Shown here: positions 5,275 through 15,512 of the stretch, piece after piece
Layout: each line of letters begins with the position of its first letter
How positions within the stretch are numbered: position 1 is the first letter of the stretch
Assembly: GCA_937863205.1 (NCBI GenBank)
Contig: CALMGA010000234.1
Location: 1-23,016 of the forward strand
From: an uncultured Beijerinckiaceae bacterium
Lineage (GTDB): Bacteria; Pseudomonadota; Alphaproteobacteria; Rhizobiales; Beijerinckiaceae
Direction: 5' to 3'
DNA length: 23,016 bases
Program-made: the position numbers and the translations under genes
The notes under the pieces: model-generated
Database searches by the model: none
What the model was told of the DNA's origin: nothing
What the model saw: only the letters and a program-made list of their open reading frames with translations

Positions 5275-8010
<2,736 letters not shown>

Positions 8011-8122
8011 GGATCTCGTGTTCCCGGACGTGAGGGGGGCGCCGCCGCGCTTATAGATAATCCAAACTGGACGCGCTACGACCCGCTCCGGTTCCATTCG
8101 ATGCAAGAACGGCTCCCGCCCG

Positions 8123-8809
8123 GTGTCCTCTCCAGTGTTCCCGCCCTCAAGCGTCCCGCTGCTGTCCGTGGCGGACCTGACGGTGGAGCGTGGCGGGCGG
8201 ATGGTTCTGGCGCAGCTCAGTTTCGTTCTCGCGGCCGGCGACGTCCTTCTCGTCACCGGGCGCAACGGCGCCGGCAAGTCGACGCTGATGCGGGCGCTGG
8301 CCGGCCTGCTGCCGCCGGCCTCGGGGCGCATCGACTTCGGCCTCGCCGGCGCGGAGGTGCGCGGCGTCGAGACGGCGCACTACCTCGGCTACGAGGATGC
8401 GCTCAAGCCGTCGCTGACGGTTGGCGAGAACCTGGCGTTCTGGGCGGCGATGCTGCCGGCCGCCGCCCCGCCCGGCCCGTCCGGCGAGGGTCTCGACCCG
8501 CGCGAGGCGCTGGCTGCCTTCGGCATCGCCCGGCTGATCGACCTTCGCGCCGGCTACCTGTCGGCCGGACAGAAGCGCCGTGTCGCCCTCAGCCGGCTGC
8601 TGCTGACCCCGCGCCCGCTGTGGCTGCTCGACGAGCCGCTGATCGCCCTCGATGCGGAAGCGCAGGTGACGCTGAACGCCCTGATGGCCGCTCATGCGGC
8701 CGGCGGCGGCGCCATCCTGGTCGCCTCGCACCAGCCGCTGGCCGTCGGGCACCGCACCATCGACCTTGCCGCCAAGCGGCGGGCCTCACCCGCGTCCGTC
8801 GAAGCGTGA
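8123..8809 (+). CDS. ccmA: Heme exporter ATP-binding subunit CcmA
   Basis: ATPase of the CcmABCD complex, which frees holo-CcmE (heme chaperone) during c-type cytochrome maturation; cytoplasmic face of the inner membrane. The 228-residue protein has Walker [10 protein letters not shown], the ABC signature LSAGQKRR, Walker B LLDEP and the switch His in ASHQPL. The substitution of GQ-K for the usual GQ-Q/R region and the small size are typical of CcmA. The start is taken as GTG at 8123; downstream GTG codons are possible because no strong ribosome-binding site is seen. It overlaps ccmB by four bases (GTGA), so the two are translationally coupled. Its neighbour acnA is divergent. Confidence 0.93.
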
Positions 8810-9516
8810 GCGAGCCGACGACGGCTGAAACAAGCGCAAGGCCACGCGCGGGGCCGCTGCTGGCGCTGTTCCTGCGCGACCTGCGCGTCGGCCGCCGGCT
8901 CGGCGGCGGTGCCGCGCTGGGCGTGATGTTCTTCCTGATCCTGGTGGCGCTGGTGCCCTTCGCCGTCGGGCCCGGCGCCGAGCTGCTGGCGCGCATCGGC
9001 GCGGCCATCCTGTGGATCGCCGCCCTGCTCGCAACCCTTCTCGGCCTCGACCGCCTGTTCGCCGGGGATCGCGACGACGGCTCGCTCGACCTGCTGCTGA
9101 TGAGCCGAACCCCGGCCGAGCTGATCGTGCTGACCAAATGCGCGGCGCACTGGCTCCTGACCGGCCTGCCGCTCGTCGCCGCGTCACCGCTGTTCGGGCT
9201 GATGCTGGGCATGAACGGTCCGGCGCTGGGACAGGTCACCGCCTCGCTCGCCGCCGGCACGCCGGCGCTCACCATGCTGGGCGCGGTCGGCGCCGGGCTC
9301 ACGGTTGGCCTGCGCAAGGGCGGCCTGCTGATGGCGGTGCTGATCCTGCCGCTGTGCGTGCCGGTGCTGATCTTCGGCGTGTCGGCGGCGACCGCCGGCC
9401 TCGGCAACCCCGTGCCCTTCGCCACGCCGTTCCTGGTGGAATGCGCGCTCAGCCTGGCGGCGGTCGCCGGCGCGCCCTTCGCCGCCGCCGCCGCCCTGCG
9501 GGCGATGAACGACTGA
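8806..9516 (+). CDS. ccmB: Heme exporter membrane subunit CcmB
   Basis: Permease partner of CcmA in cytochrome c maturation. The start is GTG at 8806, overlapping the ccmA stop in GTGA; this gives 236 residues, close to the family length of about 220. Six hydrophobic segments can be seen, the first around the FFLILVALVPFAVG stretch. The family signatures ALFLRDLR near the N-terminus, the FAGDRDDGSLDLLL loop and LGAVGAGLTVGLRKGG are present. A longer open frame in the same phase begins at 8101, but its first 235 codons merely shadow ccmA. The operon normally continues with ccmC and ccmD; here ccmB is the last gene and the next gene is convergent, six bases away. Confidence 0.93.
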   Translation: MSEPTTAETSARPRAGPLLALFLRDLRVGRRLGGGAALGVMFFLILVALVPFAVGPGAELLARIGAAILWIAALLATLLGLDRLFAGDRDDGSLDLLLMSRTPAELIVLTKCAAHWLLTGLPLVAASPLFGLMLGMNGPALGQVTASLAAGTPALTMLGAVGAGLTVGLRKGGLLMAVLILPLCVPVLIFGVSAATAGLGNPVPFATPFLVECALSLAAVAGAPFAAAAALRAMND

Positions 9517-9522
9517 TCGGGA

Positions 9523-10284
9523 TCATCCGCGTCGCCGCGCACCCGGTCGGAGGCTTGCGGGATGCGACGGCGGCTCCGGCGTGTGCCGCGTTTTGCGCCA
9601 ATGGTGCGGTCGGCGGACGAGGTCGGCGAGTCCGCCCCAGGCGGCAGCGCAGACCATCAGCTGGTAGAGGATCATCAGCGGCAGGCTGGCGAGGAAGCGC
9701 GGGTGGCTCAGCCCCCTGGCGCGGCACCCGGCATAGCCGCACCACACCGGCGTCACCGCCCCGAGCAGCAGCACGGAGGCGGCCAGCGTGGCCTCGGCGA
9801 GAGCCTCCCAGCCCTGCGGCGCCGGCAGCCCGGCGCGGGCGAGGTGAACGGCGACACCGGCGAGGGCGAGCGGCGACAGCAGCGGGCCGAACACGAGGTT
9901 GACCAGCATCAGCGCCACGGCCAGCGAGCGAAGAAGGCCGAGATCCCGCGCCGCGCCGGACCCGCGACCCAGCACCAGGGCTGTCTGCATCCAGCCCATC
10001 GTCCAGCGGCGGCGCTGATTGAACCATCCGCCGAGCGAAGCCTCGGCGCGCTCCCCCGTCGTCGAGGCGAGGTCGCCGACGCGCAAGCCGAGCCGGGCGA
10101 GACGCAGCCCGAGGTCGGCATCCTCCGTCACGTTGAAGGCGTCCCAGCCGCCGGCGCGGCGCAGGGCGGCCGTGCGGAAATGGTTCGAGGTGCCGCCCAA
10201 CGCCATCGGCAGCCCGAGCCGGCTGATGCCGACGTTGAGGTTATCGAACAGCCCGGCGTATTCGATCGCGAAAAGCTGGGGCAG
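9523..10284 (-). pseudogene. 3' part of a glycosyltransferase family 2 gene split by the transposon
   Basis: This is the C-terminal 253 residues of a membrane glycosyltransferase whose first 399 codons lie at 14254-15450. It starts inside the target duplication and reads LPQLFAIEYAGLFDN, then LGGTSNHFRTAALRRAGGWDAFN, the acid/base motif TEDADLGLRL, and the QRRRW motif, followed by several transmembrane segments around residues 110-215 of this part. It is convergent with ccmB. The two parts join in frame when the 3,961-bp element and one 8-bp duplication are removed. Separation of the DxD-type motif (other half) from TED and QRRRW should abolish activity. An internal ATG at 10206 could start a fragment but it would lack the nucleotide-binding half. 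Confidence 0.9.
10277..10284 (+). repeat. Target site duplication, left copy (TGGGGCAG)
   Basis: The eight bases TGGGGCAG abut the left inverted repeat and are repeated exactly at 14246-14253 after the right inverted repeat. Eight bases is the duplication length typical of the IS1595 family. Confidence 0.95.
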
Positions 10285-10299
10285 CGGTATTATGGAGCA
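10285..10299 (+). repeat. Left terminal inverted repeat
   Basis: CGGTATTATGGAGCA, a perfect inverted match to 14231-14245. The next bases differ (AACGCC on the left, CCTGCC on the right, read inward), so the match can be followed for 15 bases plus scattered identity. Confidence 0.95.
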
Positions 10300-10321
10300 A
10301 ACGCCATAAGCACTCCGACCC

Positions 10322-10345
10322 CATGCCGCCTAGATAAACGGCATG
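10322..10345 (+). promoter_or_regulatory. Inverted repeat spanning the start codon of the first cargo gene
   Basis: CATGCCG (10322-10328) and CGGCATG (10339-10345) form perfect 7-bp arms around a 10-base loop. The loop holds TAGATA (10331-10336), a possible -10 box that would put the transcript start at about the A of the ATG at 10343. It may be an operator or an mRNA hairpin hiding the start codon. No good -35 is visible. Confidence 0.4.
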
Positions 10346-10837
10346 TCCACCGACCTCGTTCCCGATCCCTACAGCACCCACACCCCCGCCCGCGAGCAAG
10401 GCAACCAGTACGCCTTGCGTGCCCTTCGGGAACGCCGCGCCTTCATGACGGGCGAGCTGCAGAAGCTTGAGGAGCGCCGCCGCTGGCTCAAGGAGTCCCT
10501 GGCCCATCTCGACGCGACTTTGGCGATCATGGTCCCCGGCTGCGATCCCACGCTCATCAAGGCGAAGTACCCCCGACGCAAGAGCAAGCTGTTCGGGGCC
10601 GGCAAGCTCAACTTTTTGATTTTGGGCGTTCTCAGGAAGGGCGAGCGGGCGATGAGCTTGGATGAAATCGTCGCGGGCGTTGTCGCCGACGCGGGCTGGG
10701 ATGCAAGCGATCCGACCGCGCTCAAAGGCATGAAGCCGCGTGTGCGGTCGAACCTGTTATACCTGACGAGCGTGCGGGGGCTTACGGCGAAGGAGGGGGA
10801 GCGGACGGAGGCGCGGTGGCGCTTGACCTCTAACTAA
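10343..10837 (+). CDS. Coiled-coil plus winged-helix-like protein, first gene of the transposon
   Basis: A 164-residue cytoplasmic protein of unknown function. Residues about 18-62 are a charged helix, probably a coiled coil (ALRALRERRAFMTGELQKLE and onward), ending HLDATLAIM. A basic hinge, KAKYPRRKSKLFG, leads into residues 88-160, which look like a winged helix: LNFLILGVLRKGERAMSLDEIV, then a helix and RVRSNLLYLTSVRGLTAKEG with a final strand. I recall similar proteins of this plan as unnamed alphaproteobacterial families, but no role is established. Base composition is host-like (39 of 60 G+C at 10441-10500), unlike the next two genes. It could be a DNA-binding accessory or regulator of the element; this is inference. 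No ribosome-binding site is seen, consistent with a leaderless message. Confidence 0.75.
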   Translation: MSTDLVPDPYSTHTPAREQGNQYALRALRERRAFMTGELQKLEERRRWLKESLAHLDATLAIMVPGCDPTLIKAKYPRRKSKLFGAGKLNFLILGVLRKGERAMSLDEIVAGVVADAGWDASDPTALKGMKPRVRSNLLYLTSVRGLTAKEGERTEARWRLTSN

Positions 10838-10965
10838 AGAATCCCCATCTCGGCGTGGCGTGAATGCCGCAACCCTGCTCCAATGAACGGAGTGGGGCCT
10901 TCTGCGTTGGTTGCGCTAAGAAGGTGCGTGATAAGTCAAGGCCGACAGCGTGCCTTAGGTGGGAT

Positions 10966-11544
10966 GTGAACGACTCATTTTTACCCCTAGTGGGATTCAG
11001 ATCGGAAAAGGCGGCGCAGATATGCGTCTATTTCACCGATGCCTGGGGCAGTCGAATCGATAAGCTTGCGCTGATTAAGCTCGTCTACATCGCCGAGCGC
11101 GAAAGCGTTCGGCGTCGAGGGAGGCCCATGATCTATGATGAGTGTTACTCACTCAAAGACGGGCCAATCTGCCGCAGCGCTCTAGACGGTATTAATGGTC
11201 ATATAGATACTGATATATGGAGTGATTACATCCATCTTGATGGCAAAAAGGATGTCTATTCGATCAAAGACGCTTCTCTGAGACTGGACGAACTAAGTGA
11301 GTCCGACTTAGAGATACTAGCGTCTATAGTAGACACTCATCGCGGCAAGAGCGGTGGCCAGCTCCGACAGTGGACTCACGTGCCTAGTAATGTGCCGGAG
11401 TACACTGAGGTTACTGAGAAGGAGAGGCTGCCTATCACCTATAGCGACATAGCAATTGGTGTCGGTATTAAGCACCCTGCGGACGTGGCAGAAGGTGTTC
11501 GGGAGCATAGGTTATCCGAAGCTGTCTTTCCAAGAGTGAAGTAG
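10966..11544 (+). CDS. Panacea-domain (DUF4065, SocA-like) antitoxin
   Basis: Probable antitoxin of a type II toxin-antitoxin pair. The domain runs from about GFRSEKAAQICVYF through KLALIKLVYIAERESVRRRG, YDECYSLKDGPICRSALDGI, the LDELSESDLEILASIVDTH stretch and the C-terminal QLRQWTH with VPEYTEV, which is the order seen in SocA and Panacea antitoxins. These bind and neutralise a neighbouring toxin; in Caulobacter, SocA is also a proteolytic adaptor. The start is uncertain: GTG at 10966 has an AGGTGGG site in front and keeps the domain whole; an in-frame ATG at 10864 would add 34 residues rich in Cys and Arg with no match to the family and no ribosome-binding site. The stop lies five bases before the next gene, on the same strand. 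Composition is lower in G+C than the host. Confidence 0.8.
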   Translation: MNDSFLPLVGFRSEKAAQICVYFTDAWGSRIDKLALIKLVYIAERESVRRRGRPMIYDECYSLKDGPICRSALDGINGHIDTDIWSDYIHLDGKKDVYSIKDASLRLDELSESDLEILASIVDTHRGKSGGQLRQWTHVPSNVPEYTEVTEKERLPITYSDIAIGVGIKHPADVAEGVREHRLSEAVFPRVK

Positions 11545-11549
11545 GGCCT

Positions 11550-11981
11550 ATGGTCTGTGAGTGCGACGCCTTCAAGTACAAAGGGACTGGGCCTGCCCAC
11601 AACCCGAAGGTGCCGCACTCCTTTGTAGTTGTTGGAGTTTTGAATGACTTGGTAATTCTCATTCCAATTAGCTCCGAGCAATCCAACTACGATCCGGTGT
11701 GCCCCATAGAACCTAATGAGGGCTGGAATCCGCCAGTGTGGAAATCAAGTTTTGCTGCATATTTTCATGCTTTAAAAACATCAGTTGCTTCTTTCGAAGC
11801 AAATATTAAAGACGGTAAAATTATTAAGATCACAAATCCACCTCAAACAATCTACGAACGTCTCATAAAAGGTATTTGCGTAAGTAAAAACGCTGAGCCT
11901 TGGCTCAGAAATGCTTTTGGCTGCCAAATCGATACAAAAGTGCCGCCGAGAGCACGCATATTAAGGGCGGTGAACGATTAG
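11550..11981 (+). CDS. Probable toxin, PemK/MazF-like fold, partner of the Panacea antitoxin
   Basis: A 143-residue cytoplasmic protein starting five bases after the antitoxin stop, so co-transcribed. I do not recognise a named family with certainty. The pattern HSFVVVGVLNDLVILIPISS, then PVCPI with NEGWNPPVWKSSFAAYFHA, and ERLIKGICVSKNAEPW resembles the SH3-like barrel of PemK/MazF toxins: two strands ending in a (T/S)S turn, a Pro- and Ser-rich substrate loop, and a C-terminal helix. Catalytic Arg and Thr/Ser could not be assigned. Position beside a Panacea domain, which is known to pair with many unrelated toxins, is the strongest evidence. The gene is AT-rich (17 of 60 G+C at 11761-11820). 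Its stop overlaps the transposase stop on the other strand. Confidence 0.65.
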   Translation: MVCECDAFKYKGTGPAHNPKVPHSFVVVGVLNDLVILIPISSEQSNYDPVCPIEPNEGWNPPVWKSSFAAYFHALKTSVASFEANIKDGKIIKITNPPQTIYERLIKGICVSKNAEPWLRNAFGCQIDTKVPPRARILRAVND

Positions 11982-12964
11982 GCGCGATGCCGCTGCCAGT
12001 ACCCCACGAAATCCGGGCTGGTCGCCTTCATGGTCGCCAGCTTGGTCAGCCGAGCGAGCTGATCGCCGTTTGCCACGCGGCGGTTGTCCTCGCGCCATGA
12101 CATCTCTTGCGCGTAGCGAAGCAGGTAGGCGCCGGCGATATGATGGTGATGCCCTGCCTCGGCGCGGCGAAGGCGGCTGAAATACTCCTCCGCCATGTTC
12201 GTGCAGGCGCCGTCCAGGCTGTACGCCTTGGAGTGATCGATGCGCTTCATCTCGAAATTGGTATGCAGGCTATCCCACCCCGGCGCCGCGTCGGCATGCA
12301 CAACGGTGCCCTTGGCGATGCGGGACTTGATGAAGCCGGCAGCGGCGCTTTCCGACCGGAATACGGCCGGGACGGAGTTTCCTCCGCGCTCGCGAATGAT
12401 GATGACCGACTTGCGCTTGCCGTTCTGGTTGATGGCGAGGCCGCGATGGATGCGGTTCTCCTTGAGGTTGCGAGGCTTGATGTAGCCGCCGAAGTAGGCA
12501 CCATCGACCTCGGCCACCTTGCCCTCGCCGCCGATCGTGCGGCCCTTCATCTCTTCGGCCATCGCCTCGCGGAGCTTGTGAGCGAGCACGAAGGCCGTCT
12601 TGTAATCAACGCCGAGGTCGCGAGAGAGGGCGAGCATGGACTTGCCCTTGACCTCGTTGACGAAGATCGCGACGGCGAGGAGATAGGTGGCGATCGGCAG
12701 CTTGTGGAAGGCGAACAGGGTGCCGGAGGTGAGGGAGAAGTCGCGGGCGCATTCCTTGGACTTGCAGCGCCAGCGGGGCGCCCCGTTCGGCCGGCGGCAG
12801 TTGTAGGCATCGAGGCAACCGCAGTGAGGGCAGACCGGCTCGCCGTTCGTCTCAGACCAGCGGATCGCGGCGAAGGTCGTTTCGGCTTCGTCCTTCGTCA
12901 GGCGCGCGACCTTGGCGAGGCTGATCGTCTTGGCGCGAGGGGAAAGCAGGAAGTGGACGGACAT
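11978..12964 (-). CDS. IS1595-family (ISXO2-like) DDE transposase
   Basis: Full-length 328-residue transposase that should bind the 15-bp ends and move the element. The N-terminus has a zinc-ribbon with Cys45, Cys48 (CPHCG), Cys67 and Cys72 (WRCKSKEC). A helical region follows (LAVAIFVNEVKGKSMLALSR), then the catalytic core: Asp154 in VAEVDGAYFGG, Asp225 in VVHADAAPGWDSL, His244 in IDHSKAY, and CTNMAEEYFSRLRR with Asn256 and Glu259/260 at the third catalytic position, ending with a YLLRYAQEMSWR helix typical of the family. No frameshift or stop interrupts it. Composition is close to that of the host. Its ribosome-binding site GAGAA lies in the arm of an inverted repeat (12968-12985), which may control its translation or transcription. 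Confidence 0.95.
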   Translation of the reverse strand: MSVHFLLSPRAKTISLAKVARLTKDEAETTFAAIRWSETNGEPVCPHCGCLDAYNCRRPNGAPRWRCKSKECARDFSLTSGTLFAFHKLPIATYLLAVAIFVNEVKGKSMLALSRDLGVDYKTAFVLAHKLREAMAEEMKGRTIGGEGKVAEVDGAYFGGYIKPRNLKENRIHRGLAINQNGKRKSVIIIRERGGNSVPAVFRSESAAAGFIKSRIAKGTVVHADAAPGWDSLHTNFEMKRIDHSKAYSLDGACTNMAEEYFSRLRRAEAGHHHHIAGAYLLRYAQEMSWREDNRRVANGDQLARLTKLATMKATSPDFVGYWQRHRA

Positions 12965-12967
12965 GAT

Positions 12968-12985
12968 GTTCTCGTTTATGAGAAC
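12968..12985. promoter_or_regulatory. Inverted repeat abutting the transposase start (operator or RNA hairpin)
   Basis: GTTCTC, six bases, GAGAAC: a perfect 6-bp inverted repeat ending four bases before the transposase ATG. On the minus strand the arm GAGAAC is also the ribosome-binding site. It shares 13 of 18 positions with the repeat at 13020-13037, and a third GAGAAC half-site occurs at 13052-13057. Confidence 0.6.
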
Positions 12986-13006
12986 AGCTTACCGCATACG
13001 GTATCA

Positions 13007-13034
13007 TTGGCAAGAGGATATTATCAGTTATGAT
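13007..13034 (+). promoter_or_regulatory. Promoter for the DUF6471 gene
   Basis: A -35 TTGGCA (13007-13012) and a -10 TATGAT (13029-13034) with a 16-base spacer, each one mismatch from consensus. The -10 lies inside the second near-palindrome (13020-13037), so a protein bound there would block it. The start codon follows at 13066. Confidence 0.6.
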
Positions 13035-13037
13035 AAC
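13020..13037. promoter_or_regulatory. Second near-palindrome, overlapping the -10 of the DUF6471 promoter
   Basis: TTATCA, four bases, TGATAA is a perfect inverted repeat (13021-13036). With one flanking base on each side it aligns to the 18-bp repeat at 12968-12985 with 13 identities. The centres are 52 bp apart, about five helical turns, which suits cooperative binding on one face of the DNA. Confidence 0.55.
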
Positions 13038-13065
13038 GCCGGATCGTATCTGAGAACGGATCGGC

Positions 13066-13308
13066 ATGGCGAAGCAGGCGACGACGGAACGGGAATGGGC
13101 GGAAAGGGCAGCGCAGCATCTCAAGGCGGAGATGAAGCGGGCCAGCGTGACTTACGACGGCTTGGCCGAACGCTTGAAGGCCCATGGGTTCGAGGAGACA
13201 AAGGCCAGCATCGCGAACAAGCTGGCGCGGGCGACGGTGCCGGCGGCGTTCTTTCTCGCCTGCCTTGCCGCATTGGAACTTGAGGGGGTACGTCTAGAGG
13301 AACTTTAG
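13066..13308 (+). CDS. DUF6471 small protein, HTH-like, divergent from the transposase
   Basis: An 80-residue cytoplasmic protein matching DUF6471: WAERAAQHLKAEMKRASVTY, GLAERLKAHGFEETKASIANKL, and AAFFLACLAALELEGVRL. The helix pattern (a helix, then VTYDGLAERL, then KASIANKLARAT) resembles a Cro/XRE-type helix-turn-helix, so a small DNA-binding regulator is likely; function in the family is not established. It is divergent from the transposase across about 100 bp that hold two related palindromes, so autoregulation and repression of the transposase is the natural hypothesis. Its composition matches the transposase, unlike the AT-rich cargo. Its stop is one base from the convergent stop of the next gene. 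Confidence 0.85.
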   Translation: MAKQATTEREWAERAAQHLKAEMKRASVTYDGLAERLKAHGFEETKASIANKLARATVPAAFFLACLAALELEGVRLEEL

Positions 13309-13309
13309 T

Positions 13310-14095
13310 TCAAATTGTCTTTTGCCCAACCATAATATGTATAATATCTTTATTCAAATGAAGTCCTAATGCTCCCTCGTTTCTTTTATCTTCTTCTATT
13401 TCAATACGAGATTTAATATCTGCAGCCTGCAAAGCGTTAGATAGTCCTACCGCTGGCTTTGAAAGCGTATCTGAAGCTGATCTGATATAAATCACAACAA
13501 CCCCCTGCTCGAAAGAAGAACCGACCGTTGGCTTTCCATCTCTTAAATGAATAAAGGTTCCTGCCACCCAATCAATCTCTTTCCAACTTGCTTTATTTAA
13601 TACTCCTTCAATCTTCTCTAAGAACCGATAAGCCTCAGTATCTCCTTCATTAAAGGAAATATCATATTTTGTATTCTCAAATTGAGAGCACGCCTTGATA
13701 ATTACTTCTATCTGCGCTTCGCTTAAAAGCCTGTCTTGTAGCAACAGTTTAAGCTTTTTTGAATCAAAATCCAACTTGTCTTGCATTTCTCTTATTTGCT
13801 TAGCGGCTTCATCAGGAGTAGCTCCTTTCAGTCTGTCTTTATAGGCGCCAAGCTGATCGTTGAGAAAGCTTATTCTCTCGTCTTTGACTTTAACCAGTTC
13901 TCCAGACTCGTTTGATCCGTATCGATAAGCCAGAAAGGCAAAAAGCGCGATAGCCCCCCAGACGGCAGGCTTCATCAAAGCCTCCCGACTTGAGCGGGCG
14001 TGATGCCAAGCGAATGGTATCCACTTGAATGCTTCAGGCGTCTCAGGCGCCTCGATGGCTTCTGGGAGCGCGGGTTTTTCTGCTTCTTCTGCCAT
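13310..14095 (-). CDS. Membrane-anchored coiled-coil protein of unknown function, transposon cargo
   Basis: A 261-residue protein with one transmembrane segment at about residues 43-58, after an acidic Pro-rich N-terminus and a basic stretch. Residues about 64-120 are highly charged and probably a coiled coil. The C-terminal domain (about 130-261) has alternating strands and helices: KYDISFNEGDTEAYRFLEKI, GVVVIYIRSAS, AVGLSNALQAADIKSRIEIE, and IIHIMVGQKT at the end. Many uncharacterised alphaproteobacterial membrane proteins have a similar tail, where DxEA, a Val-rich strand and a final VGxKP recur; this recollection is not a database result. The gene is strongly AT-rich (20 of 60 G+C at 13321-13380), a sign of acquisition from another source. 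No partner gene is adjacent. Function unknown. Confidence 0.75.
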   Translation of the reverse strand: MAEEAEKPALPEAIEAPETPEAFKWIPFAWHHARSSREALMKPAVWGAIALFAFLAYRYGSNESGELVKVKDERISFLNDQLGAYKDRLKGATPDEAAKQIREMQDKLDFDSKKLKLLLQDRLLSEAQIEVIIKACSQFENTKYDISFNEGDTEAYRFLEKIEGVLNKASWKEIDWVAGTFIHLRDGKPTVGSSFEQGVVVIYIRSASDTLSKPAVGLSNALQAADIKSRIEIEEDKRNEGALGLHLNKDIIHIMVGQKTI

Positions 14096-14230
14096 ACGGA
14101 CAGGCTAGAGCCACAAAGACACCAAGCCAACCGCTCTAAAGACGGCGGCGCCACATCCCGCCCAATCACCTCACACCTCCTTGCGAAGGCGGGCAGATAG
14201 GAGCGGGGCCGTTAGGCCGCTTGTGGCAGG

Positions 14231-14245
14231 TGCTCCATAATACCG
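14231..14245 (-). repeat. Right terminal inverted repeat
   Basis: TGCTCCATAATACCG, the exact complement of the left end at 10285-10299. The sequence from 14096 to 14230 carries no gene; it is non-coding right-end DNA of the element. Confidence 0.95.
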
Positions 14246-14253
14246 TGGGGCAG
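14246..14253 (+). repeat. Target site duplication, right copy (TGGGGCAG)
   Basis: Exact repeat of 10277-10284. It belongs to the interrupted glycosyltransferase gene. Confidence 0.95.
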
Positions 14254-15512
14254 CAGGCTGGCACCACCGCCGTTGGAGACGGTCAGCCGCGCTTGCAGGC
14301 AGACGAGGTCGTCGGGGGCGAGGGCGAACCGGGCGGCGGCACGGCGGAGCTGGTCGCGATCGGGACGGTCCTCGGCGTCGTACACGGTGAGAAGGGTGCC
14401 CCGCGCGAGCAGCAGCCCGGCGTTGAGGGCCCGCGGCTTGGTCCGCGGCGCGCCGGCCGGCACGGTGAAGACGCGCATGTGCGGGGCGACCCCGGCGGCA
14501 AGAAGGGCGAGCCGGGTCGAACCGTCGTCGGCTTCCACCAGGAACACGATGTCGAGCTTGGCTCGGGGATAGTCGAGCGCGGCCAAGGCGGCGACGAGGC
14601 CCGGCACCACGGCGGCCTCGTCGCGCAAGGGCACCAGCACGCTGTAGAGCGGGAGCCTTTCGTCCGGCAGGGCCGGCTCGGACCTCCCGTGAGCCCGCAC
14701 GTTCCCCTCCCGACCTTGCCAGCCGGCGGCAGACACCAGGAGCCGGAACACCAGGGCGGCGAAGAAAACGAGGCCGAAGAGGTCGGCGACGGGGCGCACC
14801 CCGGAGGCGAGGCCGGCGAGACAGAGGGTGGCCACCAGGCAGCAGGCCGCACCGTTGAGGCCGCGAAGGGCATCGCGCGCCGACAGATGCGGCGCCGCTT
14901 CGGCGAGGGCGCTGCCGACGCGATGGGCGATCTGGACGGGTAGCCGCCGCCCGACAAGGGCAGCCAGATGGGCCGGCGTGGCGATCGCGATCGTTGCGGG
15001 AAGCGGGAGGCCGAGCCGGCGGGCGGCGAGCAGGACGCGCAACGCTTCGGCGGTCGGCGCCAGCAGCCAGCCGTCATCGGCCAAACGAACCCGTCCGGTT
15101 TGCAGGGCGCGCGCCGCATCCTGACCCCGATCGAGTTCGGGCCAGCCTTGCACGAACGGCAGGGCGAGGTGGCGAGCGAGACTGCAGAAGTACACGGTGT
15201 CGCTGACGCCGCCCCCGGCGAGAAGCGCGGCCGTCACATCGGATCCGCGCGCGTTCCGCGCGGCGGCGTGGAGGATGCGCTCATCGCTGATGTAGGGCCG
15301 AAGAAAGGCGATCGCCTCGGGCAGGCCGGCGCGCCTCGGCCAAGCTGTGATCGGCCAAGCCCCCTCCGACCGAGTTCCGTCCACGCGGCAAGCGGCGGTC
15401 GGAGCGGGGTGCGGTCCGCGAGGCCGGGACGAGATCAAAGATGCGGTCATGCCAGAAGAAGGCCCGAGTCAAGGCAGCATGGTCGACTCAGCATGTCGGA
15501 AGTGCGTCGACG

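Follow-up and report, generated by a model that had tools for sequence, protein, structure and literature searches.

INTRODUCTION

Tn7 enters beside glmS, in one orientation and leaving that gene unbroken, and to our knowledge it is mainly among Tn7-like elements that proteins dedicated to target selection are known. PMC10293859 gives the same impression, and describes a sequence-specific protein (TnsD or TniQ) that directs insertion to a conserved gene, as well as the modular nature of such selectors. Here we describe a 3,961-bp transposon of the IS1595 family, found in 23,016 nucleotides of DNA from an uncultured Beijerinckiaceae bacterium (contig CALMGA010000234.1 of assembly GCA_937863205.1; the whole of this stretch is hereafter called the window). 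We consider it probable that this is a complete and targeted transposon in which a small winged-helix protein, the product of open reading frame 1 (ORF1), directs the transposase to a target motif.

Within the IS1595 family, members of the ISNha5 subgroup in ISfinder are about 3.4 to 7.9 kb long and have ends starting with CGGnnTT. The window element agrees with this in its ends, which begin CGGTATT, and in its length of 3,961 bp, and it is likely a member of this subgroup, for which we regard it as a candidate. ISNha5 itself is named in PMC11891212 as carrying transcription regulators. Such a regulator may correspond to ORF1 or to the DUF6471 protein of the element described here.

Elements that integrate in the competence genes comM, comEC, comFA, and comYC have been proposed to prevent in this way their own removal by transformation (PMC4774983), Tn7-like AbaR islands reside in comM (PMC11472951), and in Piscirickettsia comEC is disrupted by transposable elements of several kinds (PMC12955456).

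RESULTS

A complete IS1595-family transposon splits a glycosyltransferase gene

The element occupies positions 10285 to 14245 of the window. The 15-bp sequence CGGTATTATGGAGCA lies at 10285-10299 on the forward strand and its reverse complement at 14231-14245, both exact, and no further match with up to 3 mismatches occurs in the window (in 100 shuffles, 0.19 matches were found on average). An imperfect extension brings the inverted repeat to 27 bp, at 85% identity over that length, so that the left terminal repeat spans 10285-10311 (forward) and the right one 14219-14245 (reverse). The element is flanked by two exact copies of an 8-bp target duplication, TGGGGCAG, at 10277-10284 and 14246-14253. 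A preliminary description of this DNA, made from the letters alone, had given the coordinates 10277-14253, which cover the element together with both duplication copies. The transposase gene (11978-12964, reverse strand, 328 amino acids) matches the IS1595 DDE transposase profiles PF12762 (113 bits, cut-off 27) and NF033547 (128.5 bits, cut-off 75) and the N-terminal zinc ribbon PF12760 (30 bits, cut-off 25.4), with a score of 17.5 bits for NF050000, under its cut-off of 28. With these profiles, the 8-bp duplication, and the terminal inverted repeats, the element is a member of the IS1595 family, and the end search and the transposase profiles together bear out the earlier claim of a complete IS1595-type transposon with exact ends. 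ORF1, which becomes central below, lies at 10343-10837 on the forward strand, encodes 164 amino acids, and starts 58 bp inside the left end.

The element splits a GT2 glycosyltransferase gene on the reverse strand, as had been proposed: when the element and one duplication copy are left out, a single uninterrupted reading frame, 658 codons long when counted from stop to stop, is restored. The N-terminal part (14246-15450, its start codon taken from the ORF call only) carries PF00535 and PF13641, and the C-terminal part (9523-10284) carries PF13632 and PF13641. A recent insertion, also suggested earlier, fits with the perfect duplication and the stop-free gene halves. Within one order, 287 of the 397 genomes sampled have a homologue of the N-terminal part (E ≤ 1e-20). 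A check for an uninterrupted gene in relatives, which had been recommended in the preliminary description, showed that the two parts are contiguous over the insertion site in 9 of 9 homologues compared, which were the 8 best-scoring places of the genome search plus locus L028 and were thus picked for good matches, and an uninterrupted gene is also present in the two genomes that, of 99 sampled, come closest to the window in their aconitase (84% identity). In both of these genomes acnA, ccmA, and ccmB stay together; the GT2 gene was not found beside them and lies uninterrupted elsewhere. Because the parts are contiguous in relatives, the arrangement in the window is an insertion, and empty sites exist.

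Many sister elements lie at the same bases of a few genes

A first scan of genome contigs with the transposase gave 27 loci with relatives, of which 18 had paired ends, one of them with two elements. The set was enlarged by transposase queries, the insertion target never being a selection criterion, and automatic end-finding in 78 loci yielded 66 elements in which a paired inverted repeat is accompanied by an 8-bp duplication with at most 1 mismatch, or 67 with the window element; a few have poorly matched ends (for example, L104 and L067). Sister elements measure 2.8 to 8.4 kb. Loci without recognizable ends were dropped (L006, L019, L020, L021, L022, L024, L025, L074, L076, L078, L089, L108, L117, and a second transposase in L001), as were the duplicates L071, L072, L077, L091, L097, L109, and L110; L019 appears in the first-set layout listing and was not kept for target counts, L026 and L027 have no row, and the short loci L028 to L061 were replaced by longer stretches. 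The end pair of L016 was dropped as spurious; a probable left end adjoins the GT2 gene at the site used in the window, and the other end lacks a matching duplication. L024, excluded from the counts, abuts GT2 site s1 (see below) at a contig end.

Searches with the halves of the window GT2 gene as queries had first shown that sister elements split this gene. Target labels for the whole set were assigned by us. The 67 elements lie in the GT2 gene (31), dprA (9), comM (4), and comEC (1), that is, 45 in four genes, and at other places (22). Where Pfam was tried it agreed with the labels: DprA in L013 (PF02481, PF21102, and PF17782), ComEC in L115 (PF03772), ComM in L082 and L096 (PF01078, with PF13541 or PF13335), and GT2 in the uninterrupted L142 (PF13632). 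Three sites recur within the GT2 gene: s1 at the L-D-Y-P codons (21 elements), s2 just before F-A-x-(E/D)-Y (5 elements, including that of the window), and s3 at S-N-H-F-R (5 elements). When the insertions were aligned base by base in the sense of the gene, with L124, L125, L130, and L134 (see below) added to the set, the duplication started at the identical base in 9 of 9 insertions in dprA, 6 of 6 at GT2 s2, 5 of 5 at s3, and 6 of 7 in comM, where those six fall between FLDELP and EF and the seventh lies one base away. At site s1 the insertions fall into two registers that differ by a single base (8 and 13 elements).

To read the element as an ordinary IS1595 transposon with passengers, inserted at random and in this GT2 gene by chance, would fit the window alone, as well as the 22 of 67 elements outside the recurrent genes. 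We rejected this and any passenger-only reading on the recurrence of the insertion sites, since 45 of 67 elements lie in four genes, at the same base or one off per site, in several genera and in both orientations, and we hold random insertion to be highly improbable.

Both orientations are found at every site, at comM only if the added elements are counted. This bears on a reading in which old insertions were inherited vertically and exchanged transposase and cargo by recombination while the ORF1-bearing end was kept. A few close kin do share a site (L007 with the L012 element at 7998, and L069 with the L070 element at 13293; both pairs are merged in the copy-corrected count below), yet opposite orientations at one site (15 and 6 elements at s1, 6 and 3 in dprA), the two registers at s1, the presence of two different elements in one GT2 gene in L012, L070, L093, and L106, and long open GT2 frames in most of the matches listed make this explanation very unlikely.

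Some insertions deserve mention in their own right. In L012 (2055-10216) two different elements, with transposases 58% and ORF1s 46% identical, stand side by side at the L-D-Y-P site. L011 (6639-6677) and L114 (6938-6976), whose ORF1s are related, have a shared target that looks like a palindromic repeat, ttccctg..cagggaa, perhaps pointing to a further selector type; the ORF1s of L014 and L018 fall in the same clade. The L102 element (7217-10834) is inserted near the 3' end of a gene that we read by eye as pyrF, encoding orotidine monophosphate decarboxylase.

The target follows ORF1 more closely than the transposase

Each of the 66 sister elements contains a homologue of ORF1, which makes 67 of 67 with the window. 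This gene reads against the transposase and starts about 47 to 95 bp from the end in 57 of the 66 sisters; in the first set, counted together with the window, 15 of 19 rows place the start 57 to 59 bp inside the end. A single element, L107, has two ORF1-like genes in tandem (10353-11228).

The target is tightly associated with ORF1 and much more loosely with the transposase or the DUF6471 protein. Tests of this association used the 44 of 67 elements at recurrent sites, compared among themselves; neither the elements labeled "other" (22) nor the one in comEC entered these tests. In 44 of 44 cases the ORF1 most similar to a given one, taken from a different locus, belongs to an element with the same target. 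For the nearest transposase this holds in 27 of 44, and 500 label shuffles gave at most 23 of 44, with a mean of about 12. After likely copies had been merged into 42 insertions, the figures were 42 of 42 for ORF1 and 24 of 42 for the transposase. On quick-mode maximum-likelihood trees of the 44 elements with five targets, ORF1 requires 4 target changes, the least possible, and the transposase 16. As a control, among the 31 of 44 elements with a detected DUF6471 protein the nearest neighbor shares the target for 12 of 31 by DUF6471, 17 of 31 by transposase, and 31 of 31 by ORF1, and we rejected DUF6471 as a target determinant.

Among transposase pairs at least 75% identical, ORF1 identity is 40% or more in the 64 same-target pairs and 31% or less in the 88 different-target pairs. 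Eight pairs with transposases 86 to 91% identical have different targets, and their ORF1s are 17 to 26% identical; since six of the eight involve a single group of five Methylocystis elements, they amount to about three independent contrasts. The transposase itself might choose the target, with ORF1 traveling along as a passenger or regulator, and the sharing of targets by nearest transposases above the shuffled mean is what this would predict. Against it stand the same eight pairs, which go to different genes, each with unlike ORF1s, 150 same-target pairs whose transposases are at most 60% identical, and the 16 versus 4 target changes on the trees, and we judge it unlikely. It is hardly credible that insertion is random and that only insertions in dispensable genes survive to be observed: GT2, dprA, comM, and comEC are probably dispensable, as a matter of general knowledge, but survival would leave unexplained why the same base is hit each time and why the ORF1 type matches the site.

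Held-out elements and stray sites

Our rule, noted beforehand, was that the target can be predicted from an ORF1 with 40% identity or more. A search of 385 genomes of the class with an ORF1 profile gave 23 hits, 20 of them at new places, and ends were found for 10. Six held-out elements had ends and an ORF1 at or above the threshold; 3 of 6 were inserted at the exact site predicted (L124 and L134 in comM and L125 at GT2 s2), and 4 of 6 were in the right gene. Below the threshold, L130 (34%, comM) was at the comM site, L138 (36.7%, GT2 s3) was not in the GT2 gene, and tblastn placed L139 and L140 (both below 40%) in none of the four target genes. No ends were found for the other ten loci. In one of these, L135 (69%, s3), which lies at a contig edge with no transposase in view, ORF1 directly follows a GT2 fragment ending at or near s3. 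Four more hits, L132, L133, L136, and L141, had no ends and an ORF1 below 40%. The 40% rule thus finds base-exact sites far above chance, but it leaks.

A protein that reads DNA would be expected to leave some likeness to its proper site in stray insertions, and insertions away from the predicted sites were therefore examined as well. This stray-site test comprised 21 elements, namely 16 from among the 22 labeled "other," L115 from comEC, and the held-out L122, L123, L126, and L138; L011, L014, L018, L065, L087, and L114, whose ORF1s join no recurrent type, were left out. ORF1 types were assigned by us from the ORF1 tree and the held-out matches, and a matrix derived from each target was used to score every site, with background positions scanned in the same way for comparison. 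The median tail fraction was 0.20 for the element's own type versus 0.48 for other types (one-sided p 0.0018, 21 versus 84 comparisons), and fractions below 0.01 occurred in 5 of 21 own-type and 3 of 84 other-type comparisons. The clearest resemblance was seen in L009 (dprA), L062 (GT2 s3), and L080 (GT2 s1); the comEC site of L115 was best matched by the dprA matrix (0.0005) and also by those for s3 (0.003) and comM (0.006). These comparisons are non-independent and their types are our own assignments, and the apparent resemblance is put forward as supporting evidence only.

Observations that do not fit ORF1 as the selector

Several results weigh against the view that ORF1 selects the target. 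A third of the sample, the 22 of 67 elements already mentioned, lies outside the recurrent genes, and when all 67 elements are placed on the trees with seven labels ("other" being one), 15 changes are required for ORF1, where the minimum is 6, and 31 for the transposase, with the ORF1s of many unassigned elements scattered inside recurrent-type clades. Over all pairs the ranges of ORF1 identity overlap slightly, from 30.7% upward for the same target and up to 33.1% between targets, and the transposase does cluster in part by target (27 of 44 against about 12 expected). The ORF1 of L105 is nearly the same as that of the L106 element at 12533 (GT2 s3), yet L105 is inserted elsewhere, at a site unlike s3 (0.39), and L115, whose ORF1 belongs to the dprA group, sits in comEC. 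Five further stray sites (L005, L063, L064, L066, and L075) show no resemblance to their own type (0.70 to 0.86).

Among the held-out elements, L123 (comM, 41 to 42%; 7736-11704) is in comM at another place, not the FLDELPEF site, L122 (comM, 54%) and L126 (comM, 40%) are inserted elsewhere, and L127, L128, L129, L131, and L137 reach 40% with no ends and no target gene beside ORF1. The ORF1s of L123 and L126 are closest to that of L083, whose target is unassigned; with L083-like cases set aside, a condition not fixed beforehand, the result becomes 3 of 4. L123, L126, and L131 appear as a separate ORF1 group around L083. As for structure, a Foldseek search of the PDB gave no match to ORF1 below E 0.001, and a PDB sequence search with ORF1 gave nothing convincing.

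ORF1 is predicted to be a winged-helix protein

ORF1 belongs to a large family of at least 1,790 homologous protein clusters, and Pfam and NCBIfam scans assigned the window ORF1 to no family. AlphaFold, run on 69 sequences, predicts a long helix (residues 16 to 63) followed by a winged helix, with a predicted local distance difference test score (pLDDT) of 88.2 and a predicted template modeling score (pTM) of 0.58. The best five Foldseek matches in the PDB were three forkhead proteins, the KAT6A winged helix, and a MarR protein (E 0.013 to 0.04, probability 0.90 to 1.00). Scans of 19 family members gave only weak hits, among them HARE-HTH (2 of 19, best E 0.0053) and Forkhead (1 of 19) in Pfam, as well as alpha-xenorhabdolysin B (2 of 19, best E 0.0029) in NCBIfam, which we took to be chance coiled-coil matches.

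A stretch containing TAGATA stands just upstream of the ORF1 start (window positions 10330-10342), and by eye TATCTT- or TAGATT-like stretches occupy the same position in many sisters. It may be the −10 box of a nearly leaderless transcript beginning next to the terminal repeat.

A common backbone carries variable cargo

From the left, the window element encodes ORF1 (forward), a SocA/Panacea-domain protein (forward), ORF3 (forward), the transposase (reverse), a DUF6471 protein (forward), and ORF6 (reverse). With the transposase drawn forward, the usual layout of the sisters is end, variable gene, DUF6471, transposase, variable cargo, inward-reading ORF1-like gene, and end, the exceptions being L003, L017, L019, and the second element of L012. 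The DUF6471 gene (13066-13308, forward, 80 amino acids, PF20075), divergent from the transposase gene, is present in 17 of 19 first-set sister elements. Five cargo genes had been counted in the preliminary description; three of these, at 10864-11544, 11550-11981, and 13310-14095, look like variable cargo, but ORF1 and the DUF6471 gene are part of the usual backbone. Likewise, the remark that the element is far larger than a plain IS1595 element holds for its size, but passengers are on record in the family (ISNha5), and the sisters reach comparable lengths.

The first cargo slot of the window holds ORF6 (13310-14095, reverse, 261 amino acids), for which 6 matches including itself were found; none of ten slot-1 proteins had a Pfam family above cut-off. 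Slot 2 holds the Panacea gene and ORF3. The former (10864-11544, forward) is a probable antitoxin with a Panacea domain (PF13274, 53.5 bits, cut-off 25.7), its score for the NCBIfam SocA equivalog lying far under cut-off (12.7 of 190). ORF3 (11550-11981, forward, 143 amino acids), a candidate toxin partner by position only, starts 5 bp downstream, is without family, and had 2 homologues in the protein search, so that the two genes resemble a toxin-antitoxin pair by layout only. ORF3 would then be a candidate new toxin type for the Panacea antitoxin domain. Its structure prediction from a 3-sequence alignment has a mean pLDDT of 44.6, and no sequence relative was found in the PDB at E ≤ 1. PADLOC gave no match among the five non-transposase ORFs of the element. 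Ten slot-2 proteins sampled from nine elements include an MmeI-type restriction-modification protein (L001), a DNA methylase with an Mrr domain (L012), a ParA-like ATPase (L005), an M78 peptidase (L003), a DUF1902 protein (L009), and a DUF4760 protein (L014); four are without family.

DISCUSSION

Our results suggest that ORF1 is a swappable, if leaky, target selector, a prediction based on correlation between ORF1 type and insertion site, and that the window ORF1 belongs to the type that inserts ahead of the F-A-x-(E/D)-Y codons in the GT2 gene. We further lean, by a modest degree, toward a broader view in which these elements form a two-part targeted system outside Tn7, made up of an IS1595 DDE transposase and an interchangeable winged-helix selector of about 145 amino acids, with each type homing to a fixed codon motif, swaps re-aiming the element, and part of the lineage specialized in breaking transformation genes and thereby protecting itself.

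Mechanistically, ORF1 might dimerize via its long helix, probably as a coiled coil, while its winged helix would bind the conserved coding motif of the target gene, and contact with the transposase would bring the latter to the target. The transposase presumably recognizes CGGTATTATGG(A/C)GCA-like ends, and insertion would occur at a fixed distance from the motif with an 8-bp stagger. An exchange of ORF1 between elements would then re-aim the recipient, and the DUF6471 protein, encoded divergently from the transposase, is perhaps a transposase repressor. Sites in widely conserved, dispensable genes would offer a landing place in many hosts, and hits in dprA, comM, and comEC could impair natural transformation, which might otherwise remove the element.

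If this is true, a large and unnamed ORF1 family aims single-transposase elements at fixed codons. Since transposases can be near-constant while selectors differ, which part of a selector reads which DNA is directly testable, and the recurrent dprA and comM hits, with one in comEC, provide a new way of examining whether mobile elements disable natural transformation, as has been proposed.

In the open-access literature accessible to us, no report of IS1595 targeting was found, the lists of matches for dprA and comM being weak and the founding IS1595 paper possibly describing it, and nothing was found on DUF6471. The ISNha5 subgroup shares with the window element an IS1595 transposase, an 8-bp duplication, and passengers, but in the literature at hand we met no report that members of that subgroup hit genes with base precision or carry an accessory gene for target selection. 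The integrators of competence genes break the same class of genes as the IS1595 elements studied here; the reports on them, in the portions available, concern integrases, prophages, islands, and Tn7-like elements and mention neither IS1595 nor recurrent dprA insertion.

With Tn7 TnsD/TniQ the proposed role of ORF1 shares a sequence-specific protein, a conserved gene, and modular selectors. In contrast to Tn7, the IS1595 elements insert in both orientations and break the target gene, and Pfam and NCBIfam scans of the six proteins that the window element encodes revealed no Tn7-type family (TnsB-type transposase, TnsC, or TniQ/TnsD). TnsF of Tn6022/Tsy comes close to our reading of ORF1, as a transposon-encoded selector that recognizes a conserved coding motif and targets comM; the comM insertions between FLDELP and EF lie at what we take to be the same motif. 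TnsF, however, has a tyrosine-recombinase domain and partners Tn7-like proteins or a tyrosine recombinase, whereas the system described here combines a DDE IS1595 transposase with a protein of about 145 amino acids predicted to consist of a long helix and a winged helix, which would make it a separate and much smaller solution to the problem of aiming a transposon.

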